Below, in pieces: positions 25,519 through 59,230 of a DNA stretch of 64,000 bases. Numbering within the stretch: position 1 is the stretch's first letter; every line of letters starts with the position of its first letter. The notes under the pieces are model-generated. The model made no database searches and had not been told where the DNA came from. It saw nothing but the letters and a program-made list of their open reading frames with translations. Position numbers and translations under genes: made by a program. This DNA comes from Siphonodentalium dalli (taxonomy: Eukaryota > Mollusca > Scaphopoda > Gadilida > Siphonodentaliidae), in NCBI GenBank assembly GCA_032622095.1, contig CP136069.1:8882036-8946035 (forward strand). The letters run 5' to 3'.

Positions 25519-28500
25519 AAGAACAGTCAGTGTCAAAATGAAACATTCAAGAAAAATCAGTGTCAATATGAAACATTCGAGAAAAGTCAGTGTCAATATG
25601 AAGCATTCAAGAAAAGTCAGTGTCAATATGAAGCATTCAAGAAAAGTCAGTGTCAATATGAAACATTCAAGAAAAGTCAGTGTCAATATGAAGCATTCAA
25701 GAAAAGTCAGTGTCAATATGAAACATTCAAGAAAAGTCAATGTCAATATGAAACATTCAAGAAAAGTCAGTGTCAATATGAAGCATTCAAGAAAAGTCAG
25801 TGTCAATATGAAACATTCAAGAAAAGTGAGTGTCAATATGAAGCATTCAAGAAAAGTCAGTGTCAATATGAAACATTTAAGAAAAGTCAGTGTCAATATG
25901 AAGCATTCAAGAACAGTCAGTGTCAATATGAAACATTCAAGAAAAGTCAGTGTCAATATGAAACATTCAAGAAAAGTCAGTGTCAATATGAAGCATTCAA
26001 GAAAAGTCAGTGTCAATATGAAGCATTCAAGAAAAGTCAGTGTCAATATGAAGCATTCAAGAAAAGTCAGTGTCAATATGAAACATTCAAGAACAGTCAG
26101 TGTCAATATGAAACATTCAAGAAAAGTGAGTGTCAATATGAAACATTCAAGAGCAGTCAGTGTCAATATGAAGCATTCAAGAACAGTCAGTGTCAATATG
26201 AAACATTCAAGAGCAGTCAGTGTCAATATGAAGCATTCAAGAACAGTCAGTGTCAATATGAAGCATTCAAGAGCAGTCAGTGTCAATATGAAGCATTCAA
26301 GAACAGTCAGTGTCAATATGAAGCATTCAAGAACAGTCAGTGTCAATATGAAGCATTCAAGAACAGTCAGTGTCAATATGAAACATTCAAGAGCAGTCAG
26401 TGTCAATATGAAACATTCAAGAACAGTCAGTGTCAATATGAAACATTCAAGAGCAGTCAGTGTCAATATGAAACATTCAAGAACAGTCAGTGTCAATATG
26501 AAGCATTCAAGAACAGTCAGTGTCAATATGAAACATTCAAGAGCAGTCAGTGTCAATATGAAACATTCAAGAACAGTCAGTGTCAATATGAAACATTCAA
26601 GAGCAGTCAGTGTCAATATGAAACATTCAAGAACAGTCAGTGTCAATATGAAACATTCAAGAGCAGTCAGTGTCAATATGAAACATTCAAGAACAGTCAG
26701 TGTCAATATGAAACATTCAAGAGCAGTCAGTGTCAATATGAAACATTCAAGAAAAGTCAGTGTCAATATGAAACATTCAAGAACAGTCAGTGTCAATACG
26801 AAACATTCAAGAACAGTCAGTGTCAATATGAAGCATTCAAGAACAGTCAGTGTCAATATGAAACATTCAAGAGCAGTCAGTGTCAATATGAAACATTCAA
26901 GAACAGTCAGTGTCAATATGAAACATTCAAGAGCAGTCAGTGTCAATATGAAACATTCAAGAACAGTCAGTGTCAATATGAAGCATTCAAGAGCAGTCAG
27001 TGTCAATATGAAACATTCAAGAACAGTCAGTGTCAATATGAAGCATTCAAGAGCAGTCAGTGTCAATATGAAACATTCAAGAACAGTCAGTGTCAATATG
27101 AAACATTCAAGAAAAGTCAGTGTCAATATGAAACATTCAAGAGCAGTCAGTGTCAATATGAAACATTCAAGAGCAGTCAGTGTCAATATGAAACATTCAA
27201 GAACAGTCAGTGTCAATATGAAACATTCAAGAAAAGTCAGTGTCAATATGAAACATTCAAGAGCAGTCAGTGTCAATATGAAACATTCAAGAAAAGTCAG
27301 TGTCAATATGAAACATTCAAGAAAAGTCAGTGTCAATATGAAACATTCAAGAAAAGTCAGTGTCAATATGAAACATTCAAGAGCAGTCAGTGTCAATATG
27401 AAACATTCAAGAGCAGTCAGTGTCAATATGAAACATTCAAGAGCAGTCAGTGTCAATATGAAACATTCAAGAGCAGTCAGTGTCAATATGAAACATTCAA
27501 GAAAATTCAGTGTCAATATGAAGCATTCAAGAACAGTCAGTGTCAATATGAAACATTCAAGAGCAGTCAGTGTCAATATGAAACATTCAAGAAAAGTCAG
27601 TGTCAATATGAAACATTCAAGAACAGTCAGTGTCAATATGAAACATTCAAGAACAGTCAGTGTCAATATGAAACATTCAAGAACAGTCAGTGTCAATATG
27701 AAGCATTCAAGAACAGTCAGTGTCAATATGAAACATTCAAGAGCAGTCAGTGTCAATATGAAACATTCAAGAGCAGTCAGTGTCAATATGAAACATTCAA
27801 GAAAAGTCAGTGTCAATATGAAACATTCAAGAAAAGTCAGTGTCAATATGAAGCATTCAAGAACAGTCAGTGTCAATATGAAACATTCAAGAAAAGTCAG
27901 TGTCAATATGAAACATTCAAGAAAAGTCAGTGTCAATATGAAACATTCAAGAACAGTCAGTGTCAATATGAAACATTCAAGAAAAGTCAGTGTCAATATG
28001 AAACATTCAAGAAAAGTCAGTGTCAATATGAAACATTCAAGAAAAGTCAGTGTCAATATGAAACATTCAAGAAAAGTCAGTGTCAATATGAAACATTCAA
28101 GAAAAGTCAGTGTCAATATGAAACATTCAAGAGCAGTCAGTGTCAATATGAAACATTCAAGAACAGTCAGTGTCAATATGAAACATTCAAGAAAAGTCAG
28201 TGTCAATATGAAACATTCAAGAAAAGTCAGTGTCAATATGAAACATTCAAGAAAAGTCAGTGTCAATATGAAGCATTCAAGAGCAGTCAGTGTCAATATG
28301 AAACATTCAAGAGCAGTCAGTGTCAATATGAAACATTCAAGAAAAGTCAGTGTCAATATGAAACATTCAAGAGCAGTCAGTGTCAATATGAAACATTCAA
28401 GAGCAGTCAGTGTCAATATGAAACATTCAAGAAAAGTCAGTGTCAATATGAAACATTCAAGAAAAGTCAGTGTCAATATGAAACATTCAAGAGCAGTCAG

Positions 28501-29836
28501 TGTCAATATGAAACATTCAAGAAAAGTCAGTGTCAATATGAAACATTCAAGAAAAGTCAGTGTCAATATGAAACATTCAAGAAAAGTCAGTGTCAATATG
28601 AAACATTCAAGAAAAGTCAGTGTCAATATGAAACATTCAAGAAAAGTCAGTGTCAATATGAAACATTCAAGAAAAGTCAGTGTCAATATGAAACATTCAA
28701 GAAAAGTCAGTGTCAATATGAAACATTCAAGAAAAGTCAGTGTCAATATGAAACATTCAAGAAAAGTCAGTGTCAATATGAAACATTCAAGAAAAGTCAG
28801 TGTCAATATGAAACATTCAAGAAAAGTCAGTGTCAATATGAAACATTCAAGAAAAGTCAGTGTCAATATGAAACATTCAAGAAAAGTCAGGGTCAATATG
28901 AAGCATTCAAGAAAAGTCAGTGTCAATATGAAACATTCAAGAAAAGTCAGTGTCAATATGAAACATTCAAGAAAAGTCAGTGTCAATATGAAACATTCAA
29001 GAAAAGTCAGTGTCAATATGAAACATTCAAGAAAAGTCAGTGTCAATATGAAGCATTCAAGAACAGTCAGTGTCAATATGAAACATTCAAGAAAAGTCAG
29101 TGTCAATATGAAACATTCAAGAAAAGTCAGTGTCAATATGAAGCATTCAAGAAAAGTCAGTGTCAATATGAAGCATTCAAGAAAAGTCAGTGTCAATATG
29201 AAACATTCAAGAGCAGTCAGTGTCAATATGAAACATTCAAGAAAAGTCAGTGTCAATATGAAGCATTCAAGAAAAGTCAGTGTCAATATGAAGCATTCAA
29301 GAAAAGTCAGTGTCAATATGAAACATTCAAGAGCAGTCAGTGTCAATATGAAGCATTCAAGAAAAGTCAGTGTCAATATGAAGCATTCAAGAAAAGTCAG
29401 TGTCAATATGAAGCATTCAAGAGCAGTCAGTGTCAATATGAAACATTCAAGAAAAGTCAGTGTCAATATGAAGCATTCAAGAAAAGTCAGTGTCAATATG
29501 AAGCATTCAAGAAAAGTCAGTGTCAATATGAAACATTCAAGAGCAGTCAGTGTCAATATGAAACATTCAAGAGCAGTCAGTGTCAATATGAAACATTCAA
29601 GAAAAGTCAGTGTCAATATGAAACATTCATGAACAGTCAGTGTCAATATGAAACATTCAAGAAAAGTCAGTGTCAATATGAAGCATTCAAGAGCAGTCAG
29701 TGTCAATATGAAACATTCAAGAAAAGTCAGTGTCAATATGAAACATTCAAGAAAAGTCAGTGTCAATATGAAACATTCAAGAAAAGTCAGTGTCAATATG
29801 AAACATTCAAGAAAAGTCAGTGTCAATATGAAACAT
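25519..29836 (+). repeat. 30-bp satellite array, block 2
   Basis: About 144 units of the same 30-bp repeat. The first unit is slightly diverged (TGTCAAAATG in place of TGTCAATATG), as expected for an array edge. The first 600 bp include the rare GTGAGT-type units, which are otherwise found mainly in the first 5.4 kb of the window and in block 3. From 26141 on, the block is the second copy of the 4.9-kb tandem duplication. It ends at 29836 with the same truncated unit and junction as block 1. Confidence 0.97.
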
Positions 29837-30388
29837 ATAAACCGTAAATTCACATTAGGATGATGTTGTAATTTTACGATAGTTTTTCTGTCATAATATT
29901 ACGATCATTTTGTAAATATACGATCACATTTGTAAATGTCAGAATAAGTTGATCTCGTAATTTTACGACAGTTACTGATGGTCCAATTGCTGCCAACAGT
30001 TTCTGTCGTAATATTACGATGAATTTTTTTTGAGTGATGATCATTTACATATACCAGTATGATTTTTTTAATTACGGTTAACTAATCATCTAATCCTACG
30101 AAAGATTAACAAGCGGGCGCAAATTACGTTTACGTATCATCAAATTAGCACCTTGTTAGTTATTGGACTTGTTGAACAATCAGATACATGTATGTTTGTG
30201 CGAGCAAAACCAGTGCAATGTCACTAATATCACCATGGTTAAGTGGTCCTGTTGATGTGCTATGGCGTTGGAGGGTCCTGCTAAATTGCTACGATGTTGG
30301 TAGTGCAAACTGATGCTGTTAAGAAATGGACCGCTATTTTTTTCGAAACCTGTTATTTTCGCGGTGTTTGCAAAATCCGAGTGAATCG
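29837..30388 (+). other. Spacer copy 2
   Basis: Appears identical to 24967-25518 at an offset of 4870 bp. It carries the same palindromic CGTAAT/ATTACG words, then the left inverted arm (30231-30388). This copy is the one paired with a right arm, at 31973-32126, so 30231-32126 reads as a complete element with the satellite inside it. The unique part, 29837-30230, was probably host DNA flanking the original insertion and was carried along by the duplication. Confidence 0.85.
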
Positions 30389-32126
30389 AAGAACAGTCAG
30401 TGTCAAAATGAAACATTCAAGAAAAATCAGTGTCAATATGAAACATTCGAGAAAAGTCAGTGTCAATATGAAGCATTCAAGAAAAGTCAGTGTCAATATG
30501 AAGCATTCAAGAAAAGTCAGTGTCAATATGAAACATTCAAGAAAAGTCAGTGTCAATATGAAGCATTCAAGAAAAGTCAGTGTCAATATGAAACATTCAA
30601 GAAAAGTCAATGTCAATATGAAACATTCAAGAAAAGTCAGTGTCAATATGAAGCATTCAAGAAAAGTCAGTGTCAATATGAAACATTCAAGAAAAGTGAG
30701 TGTCAATATGAAGCATTCAAGAAAAGTCAGTGTCAATATGAAACATTCAAGAAAAGTCAGTGTCAATATGAAGCATTCAAGAACAGTCAGTGTCAATATG
30801 AAACATTCAAGAAAAGTCAGTGTCAATATGAAACATTCAAGAAAAGTCAGTGTCAATATGAAGCATTCAAGAAAAGTCAGTGTCAATATGAAGCATTCAA
30901 GAAAAGTCAGTGTCAATATGAAGCATTCAAGAAAAGTCAGTGTCAATATGAAACATTCAAGAACAGTCAGTGTCAATATGAAACATTCAAGAAAAGTGAG
31001 TGTCAATATGAAGCATTCAAGAAAAGGGAGTGTCAATATGAAGCATTCAAGAAAAGTCAGTGTCAATATGAAGCATTCAAGAAAAGTCAGTGTCAATATG
31101 AAGCATTCAAGAAAAGTCAGTGTCAATATGAAGCATTCAAGAACAGTCAGTGTCAATATGAAACATTCAAGAAAAGTCAGTGTCAATATGAAACATTCAA
31201 GAAAAGTCAGTGTCAATATGAAACATTCAAGAAAAGTCAGTGTCAATATGAAACATTCAAGAACAGTCAGTGTCAATATGAAACATTCAAGAAAAGTGAG
31301 TGTCAATATGAAGCATTCAAGAAAAGTGAGTGTCAATATGAAGCATTCAAGAAAAGTGAGTGTCAATATGAAGCATTCAAGAAAAGTCAATGTCAATATG
31401 AAGCATTCAAGAAAAGTCAGTGTCAATATGAAGCATTCAAGAACAGTCAGTGTCAATATGAAACATTCAAGAAAAGTCAGTGTCAATATGAAGCATTCAA
31501 GAAAAGTCAGTGTCAATATGAAACATTCAAGAAAAGTCAGTGTCAATATGAAACATTCAAGAAAAGTCAGTCTCAATATGAAGCATTCAAGAACAGTCAG
31601 TGTCAATATGAAGCATTCAAGAACAGTCAGTGTCAATATGAAACATTCAAGAACAGTCAGTGTCAATATGAAACATTCAAGAAAAGTCAGTGTCAATATG
31701 AAACATTCAAGAAAAGTCAGTGTCAATATGAAACATTCAAGAAAAGTCAGTGTCAATATGAAACATTCAAGAAAAGTCAGTGTCAATATGAAACATTCAA
31801 GAAAAGTCAGTGTCAATATGAAACATTCAAGAACAGATATACTTTGAAATAAATATAAAATCGGTTGCGCTGGTGCTTATGAATATCGGTTTGCAGCAGT
31901 CAACAACCTATTATTAAAATAGTTTATAACATATATGTTTTTAATGTTTTGTACACAAAACGACTTCTACTAGATTCGTTATTAGCCAAACACCGCGAAA
32001 ATGACAACTTTAGATAAAATAACCATACACTATCTTCACAACATCAGTTTCCCTCACCAGCATCATAGCAGTTCATCGTGGCCAAACAACATCATAGCAA
32101 ATTAGCATGACTACTTAACAGGGGTG
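30231..32126 (+). mobile_element. Foldback-type element carrying satellite block 3
   Basis: About 155-bp terminal inverted arms (30231-30388 and 31973-32126) begin CACC..GGTTAAGT and end near TTTTCGCGGTGTTTGG. They match along their whole length with moderate divergence. Between them lie about 48 satellite units (30389-31836) and about 136 bp of non-repeated DNA (31837-31972). The DNA just after the array, AGATATACTTTGAAATAAA, resembles the DNA just after the single unit in the related copy at 41827-42363. No coding sequence or clear target-site duplication was found, so the element is non-autonomous and its superfamily is unknown. The outermost bases are uncertain by several positions. Confidence 0.75.
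30389..31836 (+). repeat. 30-bp satellite array, block 3
   Basis: About 48 units. The first 620 bp match the start of block 2. The remainder (31011-31836) is not part of the tandem duplication and contains several GTGAGT-type units, one GGGAG variant and one TCTCAATATG variant. The last unit breaks off within GAACAG, where the right part of the host element begins. Confidence 0.96.
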
Positions 32127-32469
32127 ACTATAATGTAGTCATTAACGATGTGTTCCGCGTGAACCAATCAAGTGCGCAATGATGCACATAACATTAACAA
32201 TCGAACACTTTTATCGAAATTTGGTTTATGATCAACATACCAAGTGTGAATGTGTAGTTGTTTGTGATGTGCTGACGTTAAACTTTTACTTCGGATTCAA
32301 TCTATTTTCAGGGGGTACGCGGGCATAATTCCATTTGCACCCTCTCTTGCAACCCAGTGATCAGGCCTAATAGCCTATATATTCACAAACCATTATATAT
32401 ACACTGTATGAGAACATTCCGATATTGGAACCTGAAAATTGCATATGATATATCCTAACATATAGTGGT
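32127..32469. other. No gene recognised
   Basis: DNA between the right arm of the satellite element and the first dispersed repeat. I see no coding exon, hairpin or tandem repeat here. Confidence 0.5.
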
Positions 32470-32800: not shown

Positions 32801-33139
32801 CCGATATTGAGGATGCGTATACCCTGCCTTAAATGGTATACATGGCTTCAAATAATAGGCTGATACGCGAATTTAATGGCGACAAATTTTGCTATTTGAT
32901 GGCTTATATACTGGGCCATTTTAGCCCTTTTTGTCCTTGCTCGGGTCTCCTTCTGTTATGCAGGCGTTATACGTTGTCCTTGGCATAGAGTATAATATAT
33001 AGCTGGCAGGACCCTTTTCTGTAATGTGGTGCAGTTTGGTCGATTACTATTCAGAAAATGGATGAAAATAGATGGTTTTCAAGTGTGAAATCTACATGTA
33101 TGTCCTTCATCACACATTTTCTTAACTGTATGGAATTAA

Positions 33140-33535
33140 GTATCCACCCCATCTGTTAACTGGCGTTCAGTATTCAACCCATTTGTTAACTGGGATGCAG
33201 TAGTCACCCCTATGTTAACTGGCATTCAGTTTGGACCACTTCTGTCAGCTGGCATTCAGTATTCAGCACCTCTGTTAACTGATATTCAGTAGTCACCCCA
33301 TCTGTTAACTAGCAATTAGTATTCACCACATATATTAACTGGCATTCAGTATTCACACCTTCTGTTAACTTGCAATCAGTATTCACCCCATCTGTTAACT
33401 GGCATTCAGTATATGTACCCCTTCTGTTAACTGGCATCCCGTACACAATATGTTAACTTGCCATCAATATTCACCCCCTATGTTAACTGGCATTCAGCTT
33501 TCACCCACACTGTTGACTGGTATTCATAATTCAGG
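33140..33535 (+). repeat. Minisatellite of about 31 bp, about 13 copies
   Basis: Imperfect tandem repeat with the core CTGTTAACTGGCATTCAGTA followed by a TTCACCCC-like tail. Thirteen TGTTAACT-type cores can be counted. Units vary in both length and sequence, so the array is old or poorly homogenised, in sharp contrast to the 30-bp satellite only 1.3 kb away. The two repeats share no obvious sequence. Confidence 0.85.
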
Positions 33536-36280: not shown

Positions 36281-37133
36281 TGATAATATGGGAGACCCTT
36301 GCTGAAAACAGACATCAAGAGAGACAGCTCAAACACATCGCGTACACATTGTCATTGAATAAGACTACAATCATCAATAACATACAACCTTACTCATATT
36401 TAAATTTGCGCAGTACTATTTTTCGCGCACCCATCGGCGCGCGAATTTAAAACTGAGCGAAAAATAGTACGACTCCCAAGTTTAATCTAAACCATAGTCC
36501 ATAAAAGAGTGCTATGTTGCTGAGTTTACATATATTATGAATGGTTGAATAGACAATTGTGCCAACACATATATACATTCGGCTAACCGCTATCAAGACC
36601 ATTGCTCACAATTAAAGCGACATATCATGGTAACCTAGACATTGTTGAAATGCTTGTATAAGCAAAATGCTGATAGTCCAGGTCATGTATGTTGTCACTA
36701 GTTTATTGTCTACATGATGTAAATCCGCCGCGATGGTGTTCATACACATATACTATCTATGGCAATGACTAAGAGCCGAAACTGTCATCAGCTCCAAGAT
36801 ATATAAGAAAATATCACTGAAATATTACGAAAATAGTTTTCTCAGTTTTGAATTCGCGCAGTTATAGGTGCGCGAATTTAAAGTGCGCGAATTCAAAACT
36901 GAGTGAAAAATAGTACTGCGCGATTTTAAATAGGAGTAAGGTATGTCGTTCATGTGGCGAAAACTATCAGAATGAACTGAAGCATGTTCTTATCGCGTGT
37001 CATTCCCTGGTATTGGTGTACATCAGAAATACATATTGGGACTTGATCGTCAACAAGTATGGAGTGGACATTTACGTATTCGTAAGCCACCTAACTGATG
37101 ATCAGTTCGAGTCACCCATATTATGGAATGTTG
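36281..37133 (+). pseudogene. LINE (non-LTR retrotransposon) 3' end, interrupted by a MITE
   Basis: Bases 36945-37133 read in one frame through CRSCGE, then NELKHVLIACHSL, and on past YIRNTYWDLIV. This matches the C-terminal zinc-binding tail of LINE reverse transcriptases, where a CxxC pair is followed by HxLxxC. Bases 36281-36386, before the inserted MITE (36387-36942), are open through LAENRHQERQLKH and may be the preceding part of the same tail. The reverse transcriptase core and endonuclease are absent, so this is a dead 5'-truncated copy. The exact LINE clade cannot be set from so little sequence. Confidence 0.6.
36387..36942. mobile_element. MITE with inverted ends ACCTTACTC...GAGTAAGGT
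   Basis: The left end reads ACCTTACTCATATTTAAA with GCGCAGTACTATTTTTCGC just inside. The right end is the inverse, with GCGAAAAATAGTACTGCGCG-type sequence before GAGTAAGGT. Each end also folds on itself through GCGCGAATTTAAA-type words, giving paired subterminal hairpins. The element is 556 bp with no coding sequence. It sits inside LINE-derived sequence. I could not assign a clear target-site duplication, so the superfamily is unknown. Confidence 0.7.
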
Positions 37134-37189
37134 GTATGTGTGCAGACTCTGACCTGTTACCAATCTATATCTAACTTCATATCGTACTT

Positions 37190-37390
37190 AGTGCGGTCAT
37201 GTAGAAAAATTATTTATGATCATTATTTAAATAGAGCCACATTTACTATTAAAATGGATCATCAACCCTTAAAATATTTATCAACAACTCAGTATAATAA
37301 TCCGAAAATTCAGAGGTGGATGTTGTGTTTATCAGCTTATAATTGTATTATAGAATATCTGCCAGGTAGTGAACATTGTTTTACAAAGAC
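37190..37390 (+). pseudogene. Ty3/gypsy-type retrotransposon RNase H fragment
   Basis: One open stretch reads RATFTIKMDHQPLKYL, a short gap, then IQRWMLCLSAYNCIIEYLPG. This is the characteristic RNase H strand and tether segment of Ty3/gypsy pol: a DHxPLxYL motif, then RW, then IEYxPG. The usual catalytic Asp of TDHQPL is retained here as MDH. Reverse transcriptase and integrase are missing and the frame ends soon after, so it is a degraded fragment. It follows directly on the LINE tail. Confidence 0.75.
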
Positions 37391-37557
37391 GGGAACTTCA
37401 GGCCCCAAAAATACAAGCAGGTAAACACGTACATATATGCATATAATTAAATAGCGTTATTTGTTATAAATATTGCGGACTCCAACAGTCCAACTCCTTG
37501 TACGCATAAAATGCGCTAATACATAATTATTTAATATAATGTAGGATAACGTTTTGT

Positions 37558-38463: not shown

Positions 38464-38489
38464 TCTATATATATATATAACCCGTCGTC

Positions 38490-38530
<41 letters not shown>

Positions 38531-39187
38531 ATAACTCGGTCACGCTTTTGGCGCGTTTATAACTTTTCAAACATGCGTCCAATGTGGCCCAAATTTGTAC
38601 CCCGACCTATCGTGTGTCATAAAAGGTGACTCACCAAATTTCACGCCGATTGGTTAAAGTAAACCTGAGACCTAACATGCTCCCCAAATGCAGCATTTGC
38701 ACTCAAGTAGACACTTTTTCTTATGACGTTAGTCGAAATGACGTCATTGACGTCGAACGCAAACCAACACTTGCTTTGCTATTGTAGGCGAAACTTCCAT
38801 GCGCTCTACCAAAGCGTTGTAAAGAATGCTCTATTTGATACGAAAGTTGTGCATTGAATGTGGAATCGAACGAGTACCGGTATACTCGGAAGATGGCGAA
38901 TGGACACAGTCTGGCCTCCCGCCAGTGGGTACCGCGAACTCAGTTAGAAAAATCACATTCCCGAGCCGGGACTAATAGTACAGAGTAAACACTACTGTTG
39001 ACGCTAATTAATGCTCTTTTAGTCTTTCGGTTGAGTGCAAATCTGATACAAAAAATGTTTAAAAGATCAAAATGTGCGCGAAGCGCACAAAGTTAAAGAT
39101 CATATAATGTGCGCGAGGCTCACAAGGGGCTATAGGCCCCTCACCACAAAATAAAGGTTCCGAATTGAGCCTGTTTCAGTTAGTATA
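38464..39187 (+). mobile_element. Helitron-like element copy A, 3' part missing
   Basis: Begins TCTATATATATATATAACCC after an A, as Helitrons do (5' TC, insertion after A). It continues through (GT)n and ATAACTCGGTCACGCTTTTG, and matches the four copies at 53.7-59.2 kb throughout. It stops at TTAGTATA, exactly where the CACTG end of the large CACTA-like element begins. It is non-autonomous, with no Rep or helicase sequence. The GT run at 38490-38530 is an internal microsatellite shared by the family. Confidence 0.75.
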
Positions 39188-40162: not shown

Positions 40163-40507
40163 TAAAGGGGTAATGTATACTAAATCCAGTAATTTTTGGG
40201 ACCATCTCCTTTTATACTCAACAGATTATGTGTAAGAAATGAATGAATTTGAGCCATGTATTAGTGCAAAATCCACTCATATGCTCTATGAACGATGCAA
40301 ATAACATGGTAATTATAATGAATATGAATACATGACTCATTTTAATTATAATTATCATGATGTTTGCATTGTTATTAGAACACATGAGTGTATTTTGCGC
40401 TCATCCATGGCTCTAATTTATTCATTTGTTCCATTGATTCTGTTATAAAAGGAGATGATCCTATAAAATGCCAGATTTAGGGTACACTGGTACAGTCCCC
40501 CTTTAAA
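40163..40507. mobile_element. Foldback MITE, family A copy 1
   Basis: The two arms of about 150 bp are inverted copies. The left arm runs TTAAAGGGG, ACTAAATCCAG, GGGACCATCTCCTTTTATA, GAGCCATG, then GTGCAAAAT. The right arm is the reverse complement of a closely similar series, ending CCCCCTTTAAA. The loop is AT-rich. No coding sequence. A second copy at 48024-49592 has been split by later insertions. Confidence 0.8.
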
Positions 40508-41826: not shown

Positions 41827-42363
41827 CGCCCTCTGGTCCTGTTAATTTGCTATGATTTTGGATGATCTTGCTGAATTGATTTGGTGCTGGTAGAAATAAA
41901 TGATGCTGTTAAGAAAATGAATTATTTTACCTAAGTTATCATTTTTGCTGTTCATGATTTAACGAATCGAAGAAAAGCAGTTGTGTGTGTTTAAAACATT
42001 CAAGATATACATGTATATTGCGAAATATTTTAACAATTGATGTGTTGGTTGTTGCAAATAGACCATAATCAAGATGGCTGGCTATTCATATCATTTTACA
42101 AATACCAGCACAGGCATTATTAAAACATATATTAAGTAGTTTCATTTCCTTGACCATTTTTCTGTAGTCCAGTTCATATATACCGGTATATATATAGCAA
42201 AATTTAACATCATCGGATATTTAGTAGACACTGTTTTTTCTCAAATCGCTTAATAGAGTACTTAACCAAACACTGCAAAAATAAATAATGGTACTTTTTC
42301 TTACAACATCAGTTTGCCCTTCTAACATCATAGCAACTCAGCAGAACCACTTAACCAGGGATG
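41827..42363 (+). mobile_element. Diverged relative of the satellite-bearing element, with a single repeat unit
   Basis: The left arm (about 41827-41970) matches the spacer arms at 25361 and 30231, sharing GGTCCTGTT, GCTATGAT, GATGCTGTTAAGAAA and finally AACGAATCGAAGAA. The right arm (about 42240-42363) matches 31973-32126, sharing CCAAACACTGC/CCAAACACCGC, ACAACATCAGTTT, CATCATAGCA and ACTTAACCAGGG. Where the other copy has its array, this one has a single stretch, 41970-42003. It starts GAAAAGCAG and ends AAAACATTCAAGA, and is recognisable as one satellite unit with a TGTGTG expansion. It continues ATATAC as after block 3. No coding sequence. The element ends about 25 bp from the stop codon of the neighbouring exon. 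Confidence 0.7.
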
Positions 42364-42724: not shown

Positions 42725-43022
42725 CTAGAATGGAAGACACATTCTAATTAATATTTGTGGTTTTAAGGACTTAGTCCATAATAATAAATGTTTAAATGTG
42801 CTCAATCCGATCTGACACTCATAAATTACTATTTCTTTGGCTTCGGGGGTAAAAACTATTTGACTCGGGACGAGGAACCTACCCATCAACGCTCCGACCA
42901 GTATTGGGGTTCTGCTGTGTCAGACAGTAGATAGAAAAGGATTTCATTTATACACACTAAAAATATTTACAATAGCAGTCGGCTGATCACAGAATACCTT
43001 ACCTACGTCAAATTATACTTAC

Positions 43023-44062
43023 ATTTCTGTCCATCTTCATTTGCACTTTCCACAACTAGAGACGTGCATGGTCCCTCACTTGTTATATCAGGCACATGAA
43101 CGGGTACATTTGGTTTTGTATCAGATTCACTGTGCCATGTCTCAGATTCTGTCAGACAGAGAATCGTGGCCCCTTTGAACAACTTCAGTTCATCGAAGTC
43201 TTCGATCTCTGTTCCATCAGATTCTAATACGAATCTAATCAACGTTGTATTTGAATAGCCAAACTTCTTCAGAACTGGAAGAAAACAACTTGAAATATTA
43301 CCTGATAGGAAGAAAGAAGGTTTTGGATACTGAATCTGCTAAATAGAATATGTATCCAAATTTGTCACTTTGTGTTGGATTTGTATTAATCCAGTAAATT
43401 CATTGTTTTATTCAAATTATGGACAAATTATATTCAGTGGGTGACATTTTCCTTAGTCTGAGATGTTGACCCATTACCTAAGGCTGACAATAGCACATCA
43501 CACAACTGTTCAGAACTGACCTATTTATGACAGTGTTTCTGTGTTGCATTAAGGCATTTGATTAGTTATTGGCACAATGCAAACTTCCATTGCCCAAATA
43601 CTAGTAGAGTGTTGCATGGATATAAATATTGTGTGTGCATGTTAGTGTAGCCCACGCAAATGTGTATATATAGGCGGCTATGACCTGCCATGGTCGAGAA
43701 ATAACAGTTGGTTATATCATCATGCGTGGGAAAGGGAGCCCCTCTATGTCCATATACGCGGCAAAGCTTTCACTTAACCTAACCCGAAGCATGCACTTCC
43801 GCCCACGATTATGTTTTAATTACCGGCATGATAAGTAAATCTGATTCATGACTTCAAGGATAGACCTACATGTAAACCTCTTTGTTTGTATAATACAGCA
43901 TTTCCACGTAGAAAACAAACTTGCACAGTGTACGCGTACATGCAGATTGTAAAATAAGTTATTGTTACCTTTTTGTTGAAATGAATCTATGGCATTTGCA
44001 ATAATGACTTTCTTCACATTTCGTGCACCATTCCAGACCTTGAAGCAATCAATGGACTCCAT
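43023..44062 (-). CDS. First coding exons of the second CACTA-element gene: CIDE-N-like domain
   Basis: Exon 1 (44062-43969) starts at ATG with MESIDCFKVWNGARNVKKV. It has 31 codons plus one base and ends at AAAAG followed by the donor GTAACA. Exon 2 (43274-43023) is entered from TTTTCTTCCAG, completes the split codon and runs 83 codons to a strong GTAAGT donor. The join reads QQK-VLKKFGYSNTTLIRFV, then LESDGTEIEDFDEL, then GATILCL and ESETW. The order (basic first strand, helix, V/FVLExDGTxI, loop, ILxLxxxxxW) fits the CIDE-N ubiquitin-like fold of DFF/CIDE proteins, which mediates protein-protein interaction. After the domain the chain is acidic and Ser/Pro-rich. An acceptor-like TTATTTTAG lies 24 bp upstream of the ATG, so a 5' non-coding exon is likely. 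The product may be an accessory protein of the transposon; that is inference. Confidence 0.6.
43275..43968 (-). other. Intron 1 of the CIDE-N-like gene
   Basis: A 694-bp intron with GT (43967-43968) and AG (43275-43276) borders. The phase-1 join restores an open frame across the CIDE-N-like domain, which is the main support for the gene model. No feature was seen inside. Confidence 0.6.
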
Positions 44063-44531
44063 ACCCAAATTGTCTGTAATTCCTAAAATAATAAGATATA
44101 TTTTATGTACTCTGCATACCGGATGTAAAGGTTCATGTAAATGAGAAAAAAGTTTATCCAGGGAAAACACCAGTAATCAATTAATCCTTTGCCAATAGGT
44201 CTACACATTTCAAATCTAGTAATTTTTATGTGGTTTGTCAGGGTTTGTGAGTAATTTTTATGTGGTTTGTAAAGAAATGCGGGTGAGTGCACCTTTCAGT
44301 TATTTCCCCTTTATTTGTATGCTACATTTTCAAATTGTTAAAAATCTTGTGACAAATTTATTGTCATATTGTAATCATGAAATAGAATATCCTTACTAAC
44401 CGGCTGTATTTCAGAGTTTACTGGCCAACAACATTTGTAGTGACTAAGGCGTGGCTGGCAAGCAATATGCAGCTTTAATATATGCTGTCTAGACTACATG
44501 TATCTATAGAGTCAAAGTCACAAAACTGTGC
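44063..44531. other. Upstream of the CIDE-N-like exon, no gene
   Basis: Holds the probable acceptor just before the first coding exon and an imperfect direct repeat of GTAATTTTTATGTGGTTTGT (44218 and 44252). Otherwise nothing is recognised. Confidence 0.4.
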
Positions 44532-44533
44532 TA

Positions 44534-44763
44534 CAGTAATGCTCTAGTAATCGACTTCTTAACCACAGCAGAATTATGGGAAACTTTTCAGGATTTAGTC
44601 GGAAATATGGCTTGTTGCCATTCAAGCAACTCTCTCAGGGAGAGCTTTCCGATTAATGGCAACAAGCCATATTTCCGACTAAATACTAAAAAGTTTCCCA
44701 TAATTCTGCTGTGGTTAAGAATTTCTGCTTTGGTTAAGAAGTCGATTACTTAGAGCATTACTG
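44534..44763. mobile_element. Tc1/mariner-like foldback MITE, copy 1
   Basis: The ends CAGTAATGCTCTAGTAATCG and the inverse are flanked by TA on both sides (44532-44533, 44764-44765). Both arms contain TTAACCACAGCAGAATTATG and GGAAATATGGCTTGTTGCCA, so the element folds almost completely into a hairpin. The right arm has a small internal duplication of the TTCTGCTxTGGTTAAGAA part. The TA target site and CAGT ends suggest mobilisation by a Tc1/mariner transposase. Confidence 0.8.
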
Positions 44764-44765
44764 TA

Positions 44766-46016: not shown

Positions 46017-46018
46017 TA

Positions 46019-46231
46019 CAGTAATGCCCTAAGTAATCGACCTCTTAACCAAAGCAGAATCATGGGTAACTTTTCGGGATTTAGTCGGAAATATGGCTTG
46101 TTGCCAGTCATAGGAAAGCTCTCGCCGAGAGCTTTCCAGTGAATGACAACAAGCCATATTTCCTACTAAATCCTGAAAAGTTACCCATAATTCTGCTTTG
46201 GTTAAGAGGTCGATTACTTAGGGCATTACTG
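46019..46231. mobile_element. Tc1/mariner-like foldback MITE, copy 2
   Basis: Near-complete hairpin of 213 bp with ends CAGTAATGCCCTAAGTAATC and the inverse, flanked by TA (46017-46018 and 46232-46233). The loop lies around GCTCTCGCCGAGAGC. It is the best preserved member of the three. Confidence 0.85.
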
Positions 46232-46400
46232 TAGGTTTTTCCACAAGAAAATTCCAGCAAAAATTTTGTGCAAACTTTCGAGTGTATGAACATACCCTTA
46301 GGCATGGACTGGTATGCTATTACAAATGAGAAATAGATCAATTATTATACCATTTTATAAACTGGCAATTGGCAGTTTGAATGGAAACTTGTAGTAACTA

Positions 46401-46557
46401 CAGTATTGCCAAAGTAATTGACCCCTTAACCACAGCAGAGTTATGAGTAATTTTTCAGGATTTAGTTGGAAATATGGCTTCTTGTCATTCATCGGAAAGC
46501 TCTCGGCGAGAAATAATTATGCTGTGGTTAAGGAGTCAATTATTTAGGGCATTACTG
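46401..46557. mobile_element. Tc1/mariner-like foldback MITE, copy 3, shortened
   Basis: Starts CAGTATTGCCAAAGTAATTG and ends GGGCATTACTG, flanked by TA. It lacks most of the right arm: after CTCTCGGCGAGAAATAATTATG the sequence jumps to the distal part. It is only 170 bp from copy 2. Confidence 0.75.
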
Positions 46558-49654: not shown

Positions 49655-52099
49655 TCATAAAATTGTTGGGGCTTGGCTGAATATATTCATCAAATACATT
49701 TTGCCATTAAATTTGTGAGCAGAAAGTACCCACCTATTCTTCAAATCCAAATGTTTGACTAAATCAGATTCACCTGATGACACACAGTAAGACATCAAAT
49801 GAGGAACAAATTGTTCAATCAACAAATCTTGAACAATAAAATATTTGGTATCGTTTGATACAATAATTGTTTTGATCAGCGCAAAATCAGACATTCCAAA
49901 TTCATCACAACCTTTAACAATAACACATCCAGCACGATATTCAATCCCATGAATATTTACTTTATTTGTTGAATACACTACTTCCTGTGATGCAAGTTCA
50001 GGAAATCGAACCAATGCAGGTATTATCTCTGGAAAAACATTTTCCATAATAATTTCATCTCCTTCTCCCACAACATCTCCAGTGTAAAGGAAATTTGCGT
50101 TTTTTGACCCATTCGGTCCAAGTTGGGCATGGCACATCATAAGTTGGTGTTTTGTGGCCAACGATTTTGGTAAATTTTTGAAGCATTTCCACTTGAATCC
50201 TTTGAAGAAAGCATGCTTTCCTTCGAAGCGCATACACCAATGATGTCGGAGTGGTCCAAATTTCAACATCTGCATAGGCAGGTGCAGAAGATAGTGCATT
50301 TTTGGTGTAACTGAAGCATGAGGATATTCATGTTGGAATTGTACATGATGAGATGCTATAAGTTGTTCCAGGTAGCCCACTGTCGACAACGTTACTTCGG
50401 GTGCTAACACAATGAAAGTTAGTTGTATCAGTTGGAGAAATAAATTCCACTTTGTGTAGCCCTCTGGTATCTTTTTCCCCAGTATGAAAGGTAATATTTT
50501 GCACAGAGTCATTACTGCACCCGATGTTTGTTTAATCTTGGTTTCTGACAGCAAACTTTGTTTTTCAATGCGGCATGGTCTGTCAACTTCAAGATATGAG
50601 TAGCTGAAGGCTGATAGTTGTGAATTGAACCAGTCCATAGTGAAAAACTTTTCATCAATGACACAACAGTACAGCATTAATTTCAGTTCATATGGAATAA
50701 CACCTTCCAACAAAAGATGCATAGGGTCTTGAAGAATGCATTGACATACGTCGAACATGGGAATGTCATTCAGAAAACTCTTGTTATTGATCCCCCAATG
50801 CTTACTCCAATATATCCGAGTTTTTTTTGACAAGGACGCCAATTGATCACACCGTTGCTTATGTTCATCGATTGTCCTCATTATACATTGTTTTTCTATT
50901 GCCACTGGTTTCATTAGTTGTTTTGTAATATCACAATTTCTACACGGCCGATTTGCAAACCCAACTCCTTCTTTGAATCCACCAAGCCAGTGGGCTGCCG
51001 GTGTGTCAGCACAAATAGCCAGTAGAGAACCCTTTATTATCTCATTATTATTGTTTACACAGATATTTATGCCTTCCGTTGACAAAACTTTAACAGTATC
51101 AACAAAATCTTTCAGTAGAATTCCAGTTCCATATTTTCGAACATCCTTTGTCTTACTCACCGCAAGAAGTTGAATGCTCGTTAACTTAGATCGGTATTTT
51201 GGAGGAATATTCACAAGCGTGAAGTAAAATACAGTTATTTTGTGTCTTTTTACATTAGTTCCAATTGGATTCACAATCTCAATGTCATCTGTATACAAAA
51301 GAATCTGCAGAGCCTTAATGTCCTTTCCAAATAAATTGTGCTGAGAAATATAACTGCCATCACAGAAGTCACTCATTGTGTTAACGTTAGTGTGAGATGA
51401 TCCTATAGAGAGCCAAACCTCCGGTAGTGAGAGAAAATTTTCCAGATTTTTCCGGAAAGGAACAACATATCCATAATTAAGTTTCTGAATTATTTTCCCA
51501 TTGACACGATGCATATGATGACCAAGAATAATTTCCTCAGGTTCGAGATAGCCAAAATGTTCCTTATAAAATTTGAGACGCTTATATTGAGTTTCCAAAC
51601 CTTCGAAGCAGTCATCAGTTCTAACATCCATTATGGTGTGACTGTCATTAATACCACGTTGCTCAAGTTCAGATGTGATCCGCTGTTTGAAAGCACTGAT
51701 ATGATGAGACATGAGCTCTGGTGTGGTTGAAATGACACTTTGTAGTGCTTCCTGTGAAAGTTTGTGTTTTGTTTCCAAAGATAACAGATAGGCAGCACTG
51801 TATGAAATTAAACAGTTTGGTTGAAGCAAGTTATTTGGCATATGCATGTCACTAGGAAGATTGTCATTATATTCTTCTGCCTCGTCGAACATAACTGAAT
51901 CACTTGTGCTTGTCAGAGAATCAATCACAGAAGAGTGCCTTCGTTTCATATGCATTTTAAAAGCTGGCCAACTTTTCGTAGTGTAAGCACACGATTCAAC
52001 TGTACAATTAACAATGAACATCTTATCAAATTTATGAAAGCGAACAACATGATAAAAAAATTGTCTATAACAACACATAGTGCATTTGAAGACATTCAT
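49655..52099 (-). CDS. CMC/CACTA-type transposase with N-terminal zinc fingers
   Basis: A single exon of 814 codons, uninterrupted, from ATG (MNVFKCTMCC) to TGA. The open frame extends 23 codons further upstream but has no ATG there, so 52099 is the likely start. Two zinc fingers come first: C6-C9-H17-H22 and C32-C37-H50-H55. The core resembles TNP2/Plavaka transposases. It has LLYTDDIEIVNPIG (residues 267-280), followed by FYFTLVNIPPKYRS; ICADTPAAHWLGGF with PCRNC (362-389); DPMHLLLEGVIPYE (458-471); and TPKMHYLLHLP then FGPLRHHWCMRFEGKH (598-629). These acidic and DxxH/CxxC positions are the probable catalytic and structural residues, though I cannot fix which Glu completes the triad. It would excise and insert the element in the nucleus. 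A likely 5' non-coding exon ends at CACAACAAG, with donor GTAACA at 53029-53030. An intact frame amid many nested insertions suggests recent activity or host use. Confidence 0.85.
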   Translation of the reverse strand: MNVFKCTMCCYRQFFYHVVRFHKFDKMFIVNCTVESCAYTTKSWPAFKMHMKRRHSSVIDSLTSTSDSVMFDEAEEYNDNLPSDMHMPNNLLQPNCLISYSAAYLLSLETKHKLSQEALQSVISTTPELMSHHISAFKQRITSELEQRGINDSHTIMDVRTDDCFEGLETQYKRLKFYKEHFGYLEPEEIILGHHMHRVNGKIIQKLNYGYVVPFRKNLENFLSLPEVWLSIGSSHTNVNTMSDFCDGSYISQHNLFGKDIKALQILLYTDDIEIVNPIGTNVKRHKITVFYFTLVNIPPKYRSKLTSIQLLAVSKTKDVRKYGTGILLKDFVDTVKVLSTEGINICVNNNNEIIKGSLLAICADTPAAHWLGGFKEGVGFANRPCRNCDITKQLMKPVAIEKQCIMRTIDEHKQRCDQLASLSKKTRIYWSKHWGINNKSFLNDIPMFDVCQCILQDPMHLLLEGVIPYELKLMLYCCVIDEKFFTMDWFNSQLSAFSYSYLEVDRPCRIEKQSLLSETKIKQTSGAVMTLCKILPFILGKKIPEGYTKWNLFLQLIQLTFIVLAPEVTLSTVGYLEQLIASHHVQFQHEYPHASVTPKMHYLLHLPMQMLKFGPLRHHWCMRFEGKHAFFKGFKWKCFKNLPKSLATKHQLMMCHAQLGPNGSKNANFLYTGDVVGEGDEIIMENVFPEIIPALVRFPELASQEVVYSTNKVNIHGIEYRAGCVIVKGCDEFGMSDFALIKTIIVSNDTKYFIVQDLLIEQFVPHLMSYCVSSGESDLVKHLDLKNRWVLSAHKFNGKMYLMNIFSQAPTIL

Positions 52100-53599
52100 T
52101 TTGAGAATTCTAATTGATCTATTGTTGAACTTGAAATTATTGATAAGATTCAATGAGATTTCACTCAATGTTTAATTATTTCTTTAAAAATTCACAAAAT
52201 ATAAAAGATTACTACCATCTATTTCATGTAAAACTAGGGACAGCACAATATTTTGTCTTGAATCTAAGTTGATGCAATGATGGTTTGAAATTAAAATTTA
52301 ATGTGGTTCAAATCAAAGCCCAAAATTATATATTTATAATATAATTATATACCACACATTACCATAATATTTCTACAGAATTTTAGTTTACATGTAATTG
52401 TTCAGTGTTGTTATGTCAGTGTTGATGTTCAGTTATAGTCAATATGAATTTTCAAAAATATAGATAAAAAACTTGAAAAAGTAACAGAATAAACATGCCA
52501 TACATGTACTATGATTATACTAGTAGCCTACTAATATATCGGTAAAACATTTAAGTACATGTGCAATAGTATTATTAGTGCATGTACATGTAACAATCAT
52601 GTACCGTGGCCTACATGTACGGTACATGTAAATATTAGTCTCAAGACTAAACTTAAACATTAAAATTTAAATACAAGTTAAAAATCATATGTATACAATC
52701 TTTATACTCTTAGTAGATTTATTTGCATAATATAAATCAAGCTGTGAAAATTAGGTAAATTCTCTAAATTAGTCCTTACATGTACTGTATGATATGAATT
52801 TCTAAGTTAATACTAAAATTGTGATATGAATCTGTCACTTCACCGACCAATCTCACTCTCAGTCGCAGAGCAGTAATGGCCGTCAGTCACTTTCACTTTC
52901 AGTTTGACTGAGTGACTTGAACTTACTTGACTTGTTTTCGATAGGTTTTAAAAGTAAATCAACCGCAGTTGCAAATAAAATGTACTTACGAAATTCAGAA
53001 AGTGTCCAAGAATTGGAATATTACTGTTACCTTGTTGTGGAAATGAACAAACCGACACAAACTCTGATCAACGACTGAATGCCGACATCATTCTTGAACT
53101 TCATCTTTGAATAACGTGATGCCAACACGCGCATGCGCCGCGGAATCAAAATCTGTGGATCGGTGCTATGAAATCGCGGAATCAAATTACCTAAACGCCA
53201 ATATATATGTCAATGGGTCTGACTGGTTAAACGCATCGTTTGTTTTGGTGTCGTATAACAATTAAAGAAGAATATGGCCGAACAAGGCAATCGTTGTTAT
53301 CGACATACAATAATGCTGTCACATGCAGGGATTCTAGGGGCTCCTATGTCCGTCATGTCCCGCAGGCTATTTTATCGCATATGAAGCGGGTGGGGTAATA
53401 AAATGAATAAACATTCGCCGTAATCAACACCCAGATCCTGGTGGGGGTTTTCCCCCGATTTTCTGCAATAAAAACATTTATGTGTACACAATCAGCAGGT
53501 TTAATTTATGTCTAGACTAAGCATTGAGAATTTCTACAATCCATGTAGCCAATACATTAGATTTGTTTTATACACTGTATGGAAAATGACCTATGCCTT
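52100..53599 (-). promoter_or_regulatory. 5' region of the CACTA-like element
   Basis: Non-coding on both strands. It includes an exon-donor-like CACAACAAG/GTAACAG on the minus strand (53031/53030) that could join either to the transposase exon or to the acceptor before the CIDE-N exon. A GC-richer stretch with GCATGCGCCGCGG (53131-53146) may lie near the promoter. No TATA box is convincing. Confidence 0.35.
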
Positions 53600-53752
53600 T
53601 GCAACAAGTTAAACACTTTGTTGCTATACACCTATACATAAACACATTGGTATAATACATCAAAATATGAAACGTGCCGTTTAGATTCCAAACATTTAAT
53701 AAACAGCTAAATGCCTATTAAACACATATAACGTCAATTACTATTTACAGTG
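53600..53752. promoter_or_regulatory. Right subterminal region and end of the CACTA-like element
   Basis: Several TAAACAC/GTTTAG words occur (53619, 53639, 53681, 53700, 53719), mirroring the left subterminal region. They are followed by the terminal CTATTTACAGTG. The next base starts the TG run of a Helitron. Confidence 0.6.
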
Positions 53753-55490
53753 TGTGTGTGTGTATCTGTGTATCTGTGTGTGGTATAACTCGGTCACGCT
53801 TTTGGCGCGTTTATAACTTTTAATCATTCGTCCAATGTGGCCCAAATTTGTACCACTGCCTACAGTCTGTCATAAAAGGTGACTCACCAAATTTCACGCC
53901 GATTGGTCCGAGCAAACCTGAGATCTAACATGGTCCCCAAATGCAGTATCTGCACTCAAGTATACACTATTTCTTATGACGTTTGTCCAAATGACGTCAT
54001 TGACGTCGAACGCAAACCAACACTTGCTTTGATATTGTAGGCGAAACTTCCATGCGCTCAACCAAAGCTTTGTTGGAAATAAGCGCTAACTTAATGTGTC
54101 AGTTCAGGTAAATTGTGAATTTAGATAACGAATGTTGATTTTGTGCATGTATAGTGGAAGTGCATGTATAGTGGGGTGTAGTCAAGACTCGAACGTTCTA
54201 CCGTCGTTGGGACAGGCGGATGTAGTGGGGTGCAGAGTCAAGACTCGAACGTTCGTCGTTGGGCATGGGTACTAATTATAATATGGTATTTTGATTCTAT
54301 TTTAATTTGCCAGTTGGGTTTGAACATAAGTAAATAATGCTGTATTTGATACGAAAGTTGTGCCTTGAGTGTGGTATCGAAGGAGTACCAGCATACACGG
54401 AAGATGGCGAATGGACAGTCTGACCTCCCGCCAGTGGGTACCGTGAACTCAGTAAATTCGCCAAACTCAGTTAGAAAAATCACATTCTCGGGACAGGCCT
54501 AGGAATAGGGCCTACAGTGTAAGCAATACTGCCGACGCTAATTAATGTTCTTTTAATCTTTCGATTGAGTGCAAATCTGATAAAAGAATAAATGTTTAAA
54601 AGATCACAATGTGCGCGAAGCGCACGCAGTTTAAATTCATATAATGTGCGCGAAGCTCACTAAGGGGCTGCCGACCCCTCCCCCGCTAAATAAAGGTTCC
54701 GAATAGAGCCTGTTTCAGTTAGTAGGCCCTATAGATAAAGTAGAATATCTTGATTGTTGCGTTCCATATGTGCATGCATATACGTGGGTTGGGGAGATGA
54801 TGATGGGGGCAAAAATACAGTTTTATTGAAATAAAGTTTTCATACAAATGGGCCGCGCAATGCATGGCGTGTGATCATTTTAAAATGTGCTGCAAGCTCC
54901 CTATATGTGCGCGAAGCTCACGCAGTTCAAGATCATATATAATGTGCGTGATGCGCAGAAAGGGGCTGAAGACCCCTCCCCGCTGAATAAAGTCTCCCGA
55001 ATTGAGCCTGTTTCAGTATAGATAAAGTACAATATTTTGATTGTTGCGTTCCATATGTGCATGCATATACATGGGTTGGGGAATTGGGGGTGGGGGTAAA
55101 AAATACAATTTTATTGAAAAGTGTTCATACAAATGGACCGCACAGTGCAGGCGTGTGATAATTAGGCGGCATGCGGAATACAGGTTCCAAAGTGGGTCCG
55201 TTCAAAATGTGCAACAAGCTCCCAAATGAAGGCTCCTGAATTGAGTATGTTTCAGTTGGTGAATAGTAGTATTTAAATAATATACTGATTTTGTTTCGTT
55301 CAATATGTGCATGCGCATATGTAGACTGGGTGTGTAGAAATACAGTTTTAGTGAAATAAAGTGTTCCAACGCGCATCCAGTAACAAAAAAAGAGAAGCAT
55401 GACAATGCCATGTGTCCATGAAAGCGGACACTATAGAAAATGACAAAGAACATTTATATACCCGTCATTTTGTGACGGGCAACCCCCTAG
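53753..55490 (+). mobile_element. Helitron-like element copy B, 5' tip missing
   Basis: Begins within the TG run, then ATAACTCGGTCACGCTTTTG. It ends with the hairpin CCCGTCATTTTGTGACGGG (55461-55479) followed by CAACCCCCTAG, the Helitron 3' signature of a hairpin about 10 bp before CTAG. The interior has GCGCGAAGCGCAC-type words and repeated segments with TTGCGTTCCATATGTGCATG. Short open stretches in its minus strand recur in copy C but look like by-products of the repeat. It has no Rep/helicase and is non-autonomous. Confidence 0.75.
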
Positions 55491-56606
55491 TCTATATATA
55501 TAAAACCCGTCGTCTGTGTGTGTGTGTGTGTATCTGTGTGTGTGTGTATAACTCGGTCACGCTTTTGGCGCGTTTATAACTTTTCAACCATGCGTCCAAT
55601 GTGGCCCAAATTTGTACCACGGCCTATAGTGTATCAGAAAAAAAGGAGACTCACCAAATTTCTCGCCGATTGGTCAAGGTGTCAAGACTCGAACGTTCGT
55701 CGTTGGGAATGGGTGCTAATATGGTATTTTAATTTGCCAGTTGGGTTTGAACATAAGTAAAGAATGCTGTTTTTGATACGAAAGTTGTGCATTGAGTGTG
55801 GAATCGAAGGAGTGCCGGTATACACGGAAGATGGCGAATGGACACAGTCTGACCTCCCGCCAGTGGGTACCGTGAACTCAGTAAATTCGCCGGAACTCAG
55901 TTGGAAAAAGCACATTCCCGGGACAGGCCTAATAATAGGGCATACAGTGTAAACAATACTGCCGACGCTAATTAATGCTCTTTTAATCTTTCGGTTGAGT
56001 GCCTATCTGATACAAGAATAAATGTTTAAAATATCACAATGCGCGAAGCGCACGCAGTTTAAATATATGCATGTTGAATACAGGGTCCGTTTAAAATGTT
56101 CTGCAAGTTCCCTATATGTGCGCGAAGCTCACGCAGTTTAAGATCATATAATGTGCGCGAAGTGCAGAAAGGGGCTGTAGACACCACCCCCTCTAAATAA
56201 AGATTCCGAATTGAGCCTGTTTCAGTTAGTATAGATAAAGTAAAATATTTTGATTGTTGCGTTCCATATGTGCATGCATATACATGGGTTGGGGAGATGG
56301 GGTGGGGGTAAAAATACAGTTTTATTGAAATAAAGTATTCATACAAACGGGCCGCGCAGTGCAGGCGTGTGATCATTAGGCGGCATGCTGAATACAGGTT
56401 CCAAAGTGGGTCCGTTCAAAATGTGCAGCAAGCTCCCGAATGTAGGCTCCTGAATTGACTATGTTTCAGTTGGTGTATAGTATTTAAATAATATACTGAT
56501 TTTGTTTCGTTCAATATGTGCAAGCGCATAATGTGGACTGGGTGTGTAGAAATACAGTTTTAGTGAAATAAAGTGTTCCAACGCGCATTCAGTAACAAAA
56601 CGGAGA
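55491..56606 (+). mobile_element. Helitron-like element copy C, 3' part lost
   Basis: Starts TCTATATATATAAAACCCGT directly after the CTAG of copy B, so the two stand head to tail with no DNA between them. It is collinear with copy B to CAGTAACAAAA near 56600 and then gives way to a different element. Confidence 0.75.
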
Positions 56607-57349
56607 ATTGATTTAGGTACCCCATGGAACCTAAAGCCGCGAAGCCTTTAGAGCCTTTTTAGCGTTATAGAACCACATGAGTTGGTACTCCACAGAGTGC
56701 CAATCGTTGGCTCCATGCTGATTGGGTGAGACCGTGGGTGTGTCAATATCGAGTGCCGTGTGCAAACGATTAAATTAAAGTGAAAAATGGCCGCCCGTCG
56801 ACTCGCGGTCGTAGATCTGTAGGATTATTTCATTTAGCACTATGCAAGGGAGACTTTGTGGTTTTGTACTTAATTGGATGTTTAAACGCGGCAGCATAAT
56901 TTGGAATGTCACATTGTTAAATTTGCCGGTATCAGGGCTGTTTTGTTCTCTGGAGTATCAAATTGCTGGATCTATGCGTAGTACCTAAATACTTCAGAGT
57001 ACCTGTCTTGATATTTTGGTACTTCAGATAATATATAGGGTGTATCATGAAAGCATCTATTTCTTGGCACCTCATATCGTGAGCGTCATGGCTTGGGTGA
57101 CATAAATGCGGGGTGGGTATTATATGCACAATGCCCGGGTAGAACTTAAATAATTATTAGGTAATCCAGAGTACCAACAATTTGGTACTCTAGAGTACCA
57201 AGAAGTTGGTACTCCAGAGTACCAAACATTTTGGTACTCTAGAGTACCTAAACTTTTGGTACTCCAGAGTACCAAAAAGTTGGTACTCCCCCTGGGACAA
57301 AGCTTAGTACCTACGTAGGTACTCTGAAGAACCTATATTTTTAAGAGTG
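56607..57349. mobile_element. CACTA-like remnant rich in TTGGTACTC/GAGTACC words
   Basis: The right end, CCTATATTTTTAAGAGTG, is the inverse of CACTCTTAAAAATATAGG, a common terminus of animal EnSpm-type elements. Just inside are at least eight alternating GAGTACCAA and TTGGTACTC words (57170-57290). The left side has the similar GATTTAGGTACCCCATGG (56608) but no CACT end, so it is truncated. No coding sequence. Confidence 0.55.
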
Positions 57350-57494
57350 TACGCATGCGTTACAAAGATTACCGTTATTTCGTTAAAGGTACCCTCCGAG
57401 TTTGGATATATTTACGAAATAACGAGGTCCTCACAACTACGGTATTGTTTGAATTTCTAAAGAAATGTACCCACAACGTATGTAATACAAACAA
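57350..57494. other. Short unassigned stretch between elements
   Basis: Contains TACGCATGCGT next to the CACTA-like end and no other recognised feature. Confidence 0.4.
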
Positions 57495-58665: not shown

Positions 58666-59230
58666 TCTTTATATAAAACCCGTCGTCTGTGTGTGTGTGT
58701 GTGTCTGTGTGTGTATAACTCGGTCACGCTTTTGGCGCCTTTATAACTTTTCAACCATGCGTCCGATGTGGACTAAATTTGTACCACGACCTATAATGTG
58801 TCGTAAAAGGTGACTCACCAAATTTCACGCCGATTGGTCAAAGCAAACCTGAGATCTAACATGGTCCCCAAATGCAGTATTTGCACTCAAGTAGACACTA
58901 TTTCTTATGACGTTTGTCGAAATGACGTCATTTGACGTCGTACGCAAACCCAAACTTGCGTTGCTATTGTATTGACGAAATTTCCATGCGCTCTACCAAA
59001 GCGTTGTTGAAAATGGGCGCTATAAATTAATTGTCAGATCAGGTTGAGTGTGAATATTATAAGTAATGCATGTTGCTTTTGTCGTGGAAGTGCATGTTGA
59101 GTCGAGACTAGAACGTTCTATACCATCGTTAGAAATGGGTGTTAAATGGTCTTATAATATGCCACTTCAGTGTGAATATAAGTAATGGGTTGTGTCTTTG
59201 TTATGAAAGTTGTGCATTGTATGGGGAATT
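58666..59230 (+). mobile_element. Helitron-like element copy E, 3' part missing
   Basis: Starts TCTTTATATAAAACCCGTCG immediately after the CTAG of copy D, the second precise head-to-tail junction in this region. Similarity stops after AAAGTTGTGCATTGTATG, so the 3' hairpin end is lost. Confidence 0.7.

Follow-up and report, generated by a model that had tools for sequence, protein, structure and literature searches.

We analyzed a stretch of 64,000 bp (the window), the left half of which is a 30-bp satellite, with two inverted-repeat elements to its right, A (30230-32127) and B (41827-42363). Tandem Repeats Finder reported the satellite as a single row (1-31833) that bridges two interruptions; in the window it fills positions 1-24966, 25519-29836 and 30389-31836, about 30.7 kb. 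The first-pass annotation had placed the satellite between the arms of A, which holds for the array at 30389-31836, but the other two stretches lie outside them. The features are the following:

1-24966 (+): main satellite array, about 830 units, running past the left end of the window, with block duplications (e.g. lags 3720 and 3870)
24967-25359 (+), again at 29837-30229: 393-bp flank left of A, part of a duplicated block
25360-25518 (+): second, identical copy of the A left arm, within a 4870-bp block duplication
25519-29836 (+): middle block of the satellite, 143 full units
30230-30388 (+): A left arm up to the array entry, from arm alignments
30242-30328: two, perhaps three, direct repeats of approximately 29 bp in the A left arm (shift-29 self-match 20/28, 0 of 1475 tiles as good; third repeat by inspection)
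30389-31836 (+): 30-bp satellite array of A, 48 full units plus the 8-base partial unit AAGAACAG
31837-31937 (no strand): A interior, lying between the array and the right-arm single unit; its part 31890-31937 is a reverse match to B 42006-42058
31938-31978 (-): putative unamplified single-unit counterpart at the inner end of the A right arm, limits set by eye; matches the B unit
31979-32127 (-): A right arm, from arm alignments
41827-41963 (+): B left arm, from arm alignments
41964-42005 (+): single degenerate unit of B (score 37 against the A entry unit, 38 against the A right-arm unit)
42006-42265 (no strand): B interior; 42206-42256 may hold an eroded right-arm unit
42266-42363 (-): B right arm, shortened by an alignment gap

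A BLAST search of the whole window with the arms (E 0.01) returned elements A and B, the second copy of the A left arm at 25360, short matches in the satellite to the last 17 arm bases of A, and one 18-bp palindrome inside B. The window contains the A left arm twice and the A right arm once. No open reading frame of at least 70 amino acids lies inside B, and neither Rfam at the gathering threshold (24900-64000) nor ARAGORN (window) gave a match. The neighborhood holds further repeats. A palindromic stretch of the GTAATTTTACGA type at 25085-25149, in the left flank of A, is perhaps another small element. Strong inverted repeats at 40174-40486, 44531-44765 and 46017-46511 are probably small transposons, of which the second and third are related, and a dispersed repeat occurs in several copies of roughly 72-91% identity at 38472-39185 and 53750-59229. 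An RNase H domain fragment of a retrotransposon lies at 37095-37424 (Pfam RT_RNaseH, 1.5e-09), and near B an open frame at 43003-43338 (-) matches the CIDE-N domain just below the cut-off (21.1 versus 23.5 bits). The long open frame at 49655-52171 (-) has weak similarity, below the Pfam cut-offs, to Plavaka and tnp2 transposases. Its 813-aa transposase-like frame (49655-52096, -) has 94 relatives at 29-47% identity, and the 9 that carry an organism name are all animals (starfish, limpet, feather star, sea urchin, oyster, ribbon worm, fish, lancelet and rotifer), so the window itself is probably animal DNA; no relatives were found for a second open frame of the window. A second 30-bp tandem array (33131-33533, 13.5 copies, 72% matches) lies about 1 kb from A. 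Its unit resembles the right tip of A, but 88 of 5936 control tiles and 27 of 2000 unit shuffles did equally well, and the other three of the four arms tried were far weaker; we therefore dropped its reading as an amplified arm tip.

The arms of A and B are related, as the first-pass annotation had claimed: five of the six arm pairs, with scores of 44-118, surpassed every one of 200 shuffles (maxima of 25-33), while the two arms of B itself reached a local score of 29, below their shuffle best of 31. In a MAFFT alignment of the four arms including the unit, identity was 59-67% across the six pairs. The two arms of A are 67% identical over 189 columns, and the A arms are 62-67% identical to the B arms. 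Since the arms of A have diverged from each other about as much as from those of B, divergence marks B neither as older nor as ancestral. This removes the ground on which a collapse of an array to one unit in B had been called the less likely course, namely that the whole copy of B is diverged. Three arms also contain a direct self-repeat of approximately 29 bp above background (0, 2 and 2 of 1475 tiles as good), which is weaker in the fourth, B-right (44 of 1475). We rejected a derivation of the satellite unit from this repeat, for which the best of the four arms was equalled by 864 of 2950 tiles.

The presence of one degenerate unit in B was confirmed. Segment 41964-42005 aligned to the first satellite unit of A with a score of 37, which none of 6220 control tiles reached (maximum 29; the tiles are 50 bp long, taken every 10 bp on both strands, and overlap, so that such counts are ranks and not probabilities). 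It aligned equally well, in reverse, to the inner end of the A right arm at 31938-31978 (score 38, again 0 of 6220). The entry and exit strings said to be common to both elements did not hold up: CGAATCGAAGAA and CAAGATATAC occur exactly in B only, and their counterparts in A are TGAATCGAAGAA, with 11 bases in common with the B entry string, and CAAGAACAGATATAC. The array of A is bounded by an 8-base direct repeat arising from the partial unit AAGAACAG; this repeat could be the microhomology from which the array started, or the array could have produced it. The bases of B at the array-bounding position share AAGA with it. The first-pass annotation suggested that AAGA could have primed the first slippage or unequal exchange, but such pairs are common: among the 140 AAGA sites at 32127-64000 there are eight pairs spaced 28-34 bp apart, that of B included.

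The pairwise arm alignments placed B differently from the first-pass annotation, in which B was the direct pre-amplification form of A, in the same orientation and with its unit at the place of the array. The arms aligned above chance, but the best pairing was B-left with A-right in reverse. B 41836-42058 aligned to A 32111-31890 with 71% identity over 230 columns (E 4.7e-19 and 5.1e-17 in two runs), an alignment that spans the left half of B, the unit and 53 bp past it. The B-left score was 118 with A-right reversed and 76 with A-left. For the sequence past the unit, none of 5936 tiles was as good as the match of B-left to A-right reversed, in both directions. The sequence past the B unit did not convincingly match the post-array sequence of A, whether the comparison was anchored (equalled by 132 and 435 of 5936 tiles) or local (by 415 and 905 of 5936). 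For the whole interiors, reversing one gave a score of 33, reached in 11 of 2920 cases, and keeping both in the same orientation gave 21, reached in 646 of 2920; of the gap-free informative sites across the four arms, 14 in all, nine grouped B reversed, four in the same orientation and one with the arms of each element together.

Some comparisons argue against reversal. The outer arm of B-left is 77% identical to A-left over 83 bp and 70% identical to A-right over 87 bp, and the B unit segment also has an in-place fit to the A left arm that 1 and 5 of 5936 tiles equalled. Moreover, two matches expected if B is reversed were absent: the post-array sequence of A did not match the right interior of B (426 and 736 of 5936), and the entry unit of A did not match the candidate eroded unit of B at 42206-42256 (680 and 987 of 5936), although this candidate does resemble A-right (12 and 3 of 5936). 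Arm-to-arm exchange within an inverted-repeat element could, we infer, mix orientation signals in this way. An inverted symmetry continuing past the array of A seemed good in an anchored comparison (3 and 6 of 5936), but an offset-start control with the same self-overlap gave 871 of 5840 and we dropped it. A direct ancestor in the same orientation thus has in its favor the in-place fit and the outer arm just described, together with GAATCGAAGAA and AAACATTCAAGA, which the B unit and the A entry unit both contain (0 of 6220 tiles). Against it stand the past-unit sequence, which matches the right half of A reversed and not the post-array sequence, the higher overall score in reverse and the approximately equal distances among the arms, and we regard it as unlikely. 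Judged by these alignments, the closest counterpart of the B unit in A is the inner end of the unamplified right arm, not the place of the array, and B would be reversed relative to A. The best reading of B is that of a sister copy of the ancestral type, which would be neither a datable precursor nor the parent of the array.

This places the unit within the arm. Compared directly, the A right-arm segment and the A entry unit do not match (local score 16, with 1221 of 6220 tiles as good; anchored score 13, with 91 and 142 of 5936). This direct match is weak; the link between A-right and the satellite unit relies on the B unit as a bridge and on collinear position. In our preferred reading the unit forms the inner end of the arm; B-left and A-right would have it once, and A-left alone would have it amplified. 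A change from single unit to array is the economical polarity, since the sequence common to B-left and A-right continues unbroken across one unit and beyond it, and a second unit was seen in neither; to this extent the earlier proposal, that the unit was once single in the transposon family and was later amplified, was upheld. In the opposite polarity, arrays formerly present in the arms of the family would have contracted, leaving a single unit in B. Tandem arrays do contract, and nothing in the window dates the event, but this course would require contraction to a single unit in both B-left and A-right, with the same uninterrupted inner sequence left in each, and we consider such a collapse very improbable. 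A similarly small likelihood attaches to capture, in which the tandem repeat came first and was then taken up by the transposon family, as is reported to have been proposed for miDNA4 in Xenopus (PMC12628747). The satellite greatly exceeds the element in size and continues past it, as capture would allow, but in each of A-left, A-right and B-left the unit is collinear with the arm, so that it would have to have been captured before the arms diverged.

We favor an origin from the arm, followed by growth beyond the element. Of the 900-bp blocks of the satellite, 35 in all, 24 are at least 99% identical to a partner elsewhere in the array, at lags of 3720 (6 blocks), 4900 (5), 3870 (4), 4870 (4), and 4290, 7080, 8770 or 10950 (5 together); the best partners of the other 11 are 67-98% identical. 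An exact match of 1634 bp, between 24244-25877 and 29114-30747, begins and ends in array and takes in the 393-bp flank and the A left arm between. This flank does not resemble the flanks of B or the right flank of A (96, 544 and 398 of 558 tiles as good); it is therefore most likely host sequence, the array having grown over the left border of A. Some of the block duplications may be artifacts of the assembly. An exact-match search with one satellite and one arm pattern gave no hits in viral_contigs or genome_contigs, which hold viral and prokaryote records and from which the genome of the window is perhaps absent, so that little follows from this result.

Two marks of foldback elements, long pairing inverted arms and tandem repeats inside the arms, were looked for. 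Without its array, A folds at -78.5 kcal/mol, compared with -42.3 (sd 4.7, lowest -56.8) for 60 mononucleotide shuffles, and thus has long pairing arms. B does not, as 88 of 100 dinucleotide shuffles fold as well (z +1.1), probably as a result of decay. Tandem repeats inside the arms are present as the self-repeats of approximately 29 bp and, in A-left, the 30-bp array. No convincing target-site duplication was found for A or B, exact pairs being of at most 4 bp; one 7-bp pair with one mismatch for A lies off its presumed ends. TTAA occurs near both tips of A, and by eye the similarity of the tips extends past it.

Satellites that began inside a transposon are already known in flies and frogs, and the present case would be a new instance. 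Published accounts describe several systems with which it can be compared. In Tetris/TIR-220 of Drosophila virilis, tandem repeats in foldback arms grew into satellites (PMC4079207). Like A, Tetris is apparently non-autonomous, with long inverted arms, tandem repeats in the arms and long arrays grown from them, and its repeat may derive from part of the arm. That account gives repeats of approximately 220 bp, arms of up to 1,735 bp, target duplications of 8-10 bp, and three complete and several rearranged copies, whereas here the units are 30 bp, only one arm is amplified, no target duplication is clear and there are two copies (PMC4079207). In reviews of miDNA4, a Tc1/mariner MITE of Xenopus, the unit is likewise described as a single monomer or in arrays inside an inverted-repeat element, and short direct repeats are proposed to mediate its gain and loss; there the unit is proposed to come from a captured tandem repeat, with AT-rich direct repeats of at least 5 bp at its flanks, while here it appears to be part of the arm (PMC12628747, PMC9659126). 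Xstir of the Xenopus Xmix MITE also exists as MITE, tandem-array and composite forms with MITE-derived repeats, which come from the TIR according to one review and from internal sequence according to the other; a stem-loop hybrid-element mechanism is proposed there, and we liken it by description and not by sequence (PMC12628747, PMC9659126). Helitrons and Helentrons are described as carrying arrays inside elements (PMC12628747; compare the oyster papers PMC7492417 and PMC8268682), and plant Helitron arrays with many 5' ends and one 3' end (PMC12628747) recall the repeated left and single right arm of A. Unlike these, A and B are bordered by inverted arms about 100-180 bp long, and the repeated block holds 393 bp that the B flanks lack. 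A literature search for this particular satellite, made without a species name, found none.

Altogether, we think it rather probable, from a comparison of orientation and origin in two elements only, that A and B are old copies of one inverted-repeat transposon family lying in opposite orientations, that the unit of A-left was amplified, and that the satellite outgrew the element. A and B would belong to a foldback- or MITE-like DNA transposon family without evident coding capacity, with a segment of approximately 40 bp at the inner end of each arm. In the left arm of A, a 30-bp part of this segment would have become a tandem array, first by a local duplication, either slippage or microhomology-mediated, and then by unequal exchange and multi-kb block duplications; the duplicated blocks themselves are seen as identity, and how they formed is what we infer. 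A block duplicated beside A would have taken in its left arm and the 393-bp flank, whereby the satellite outgrew the transposon, and the unamplified state would have been kept in the A right arm and the B left arm. A more specific proposal, which we hold with about equal belief and doubt, is that of a foldback element with an amplification-prone inner arm end, in which one arm gave rise to a satellite of about a thousand units that escaped through its own left boundary by block duplication, the opposite unamplified arm providing a before-and-after comparison in one element. The value of the locus would be that a single stretch shows the seed, the array and the beginnings of outgrowth: the opposite arm serves as a control for the pre-amplification state, and the block with arm and flank hints at the way in which an array can leave its element. 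It would offer a testable example of this process rather than a new principle.
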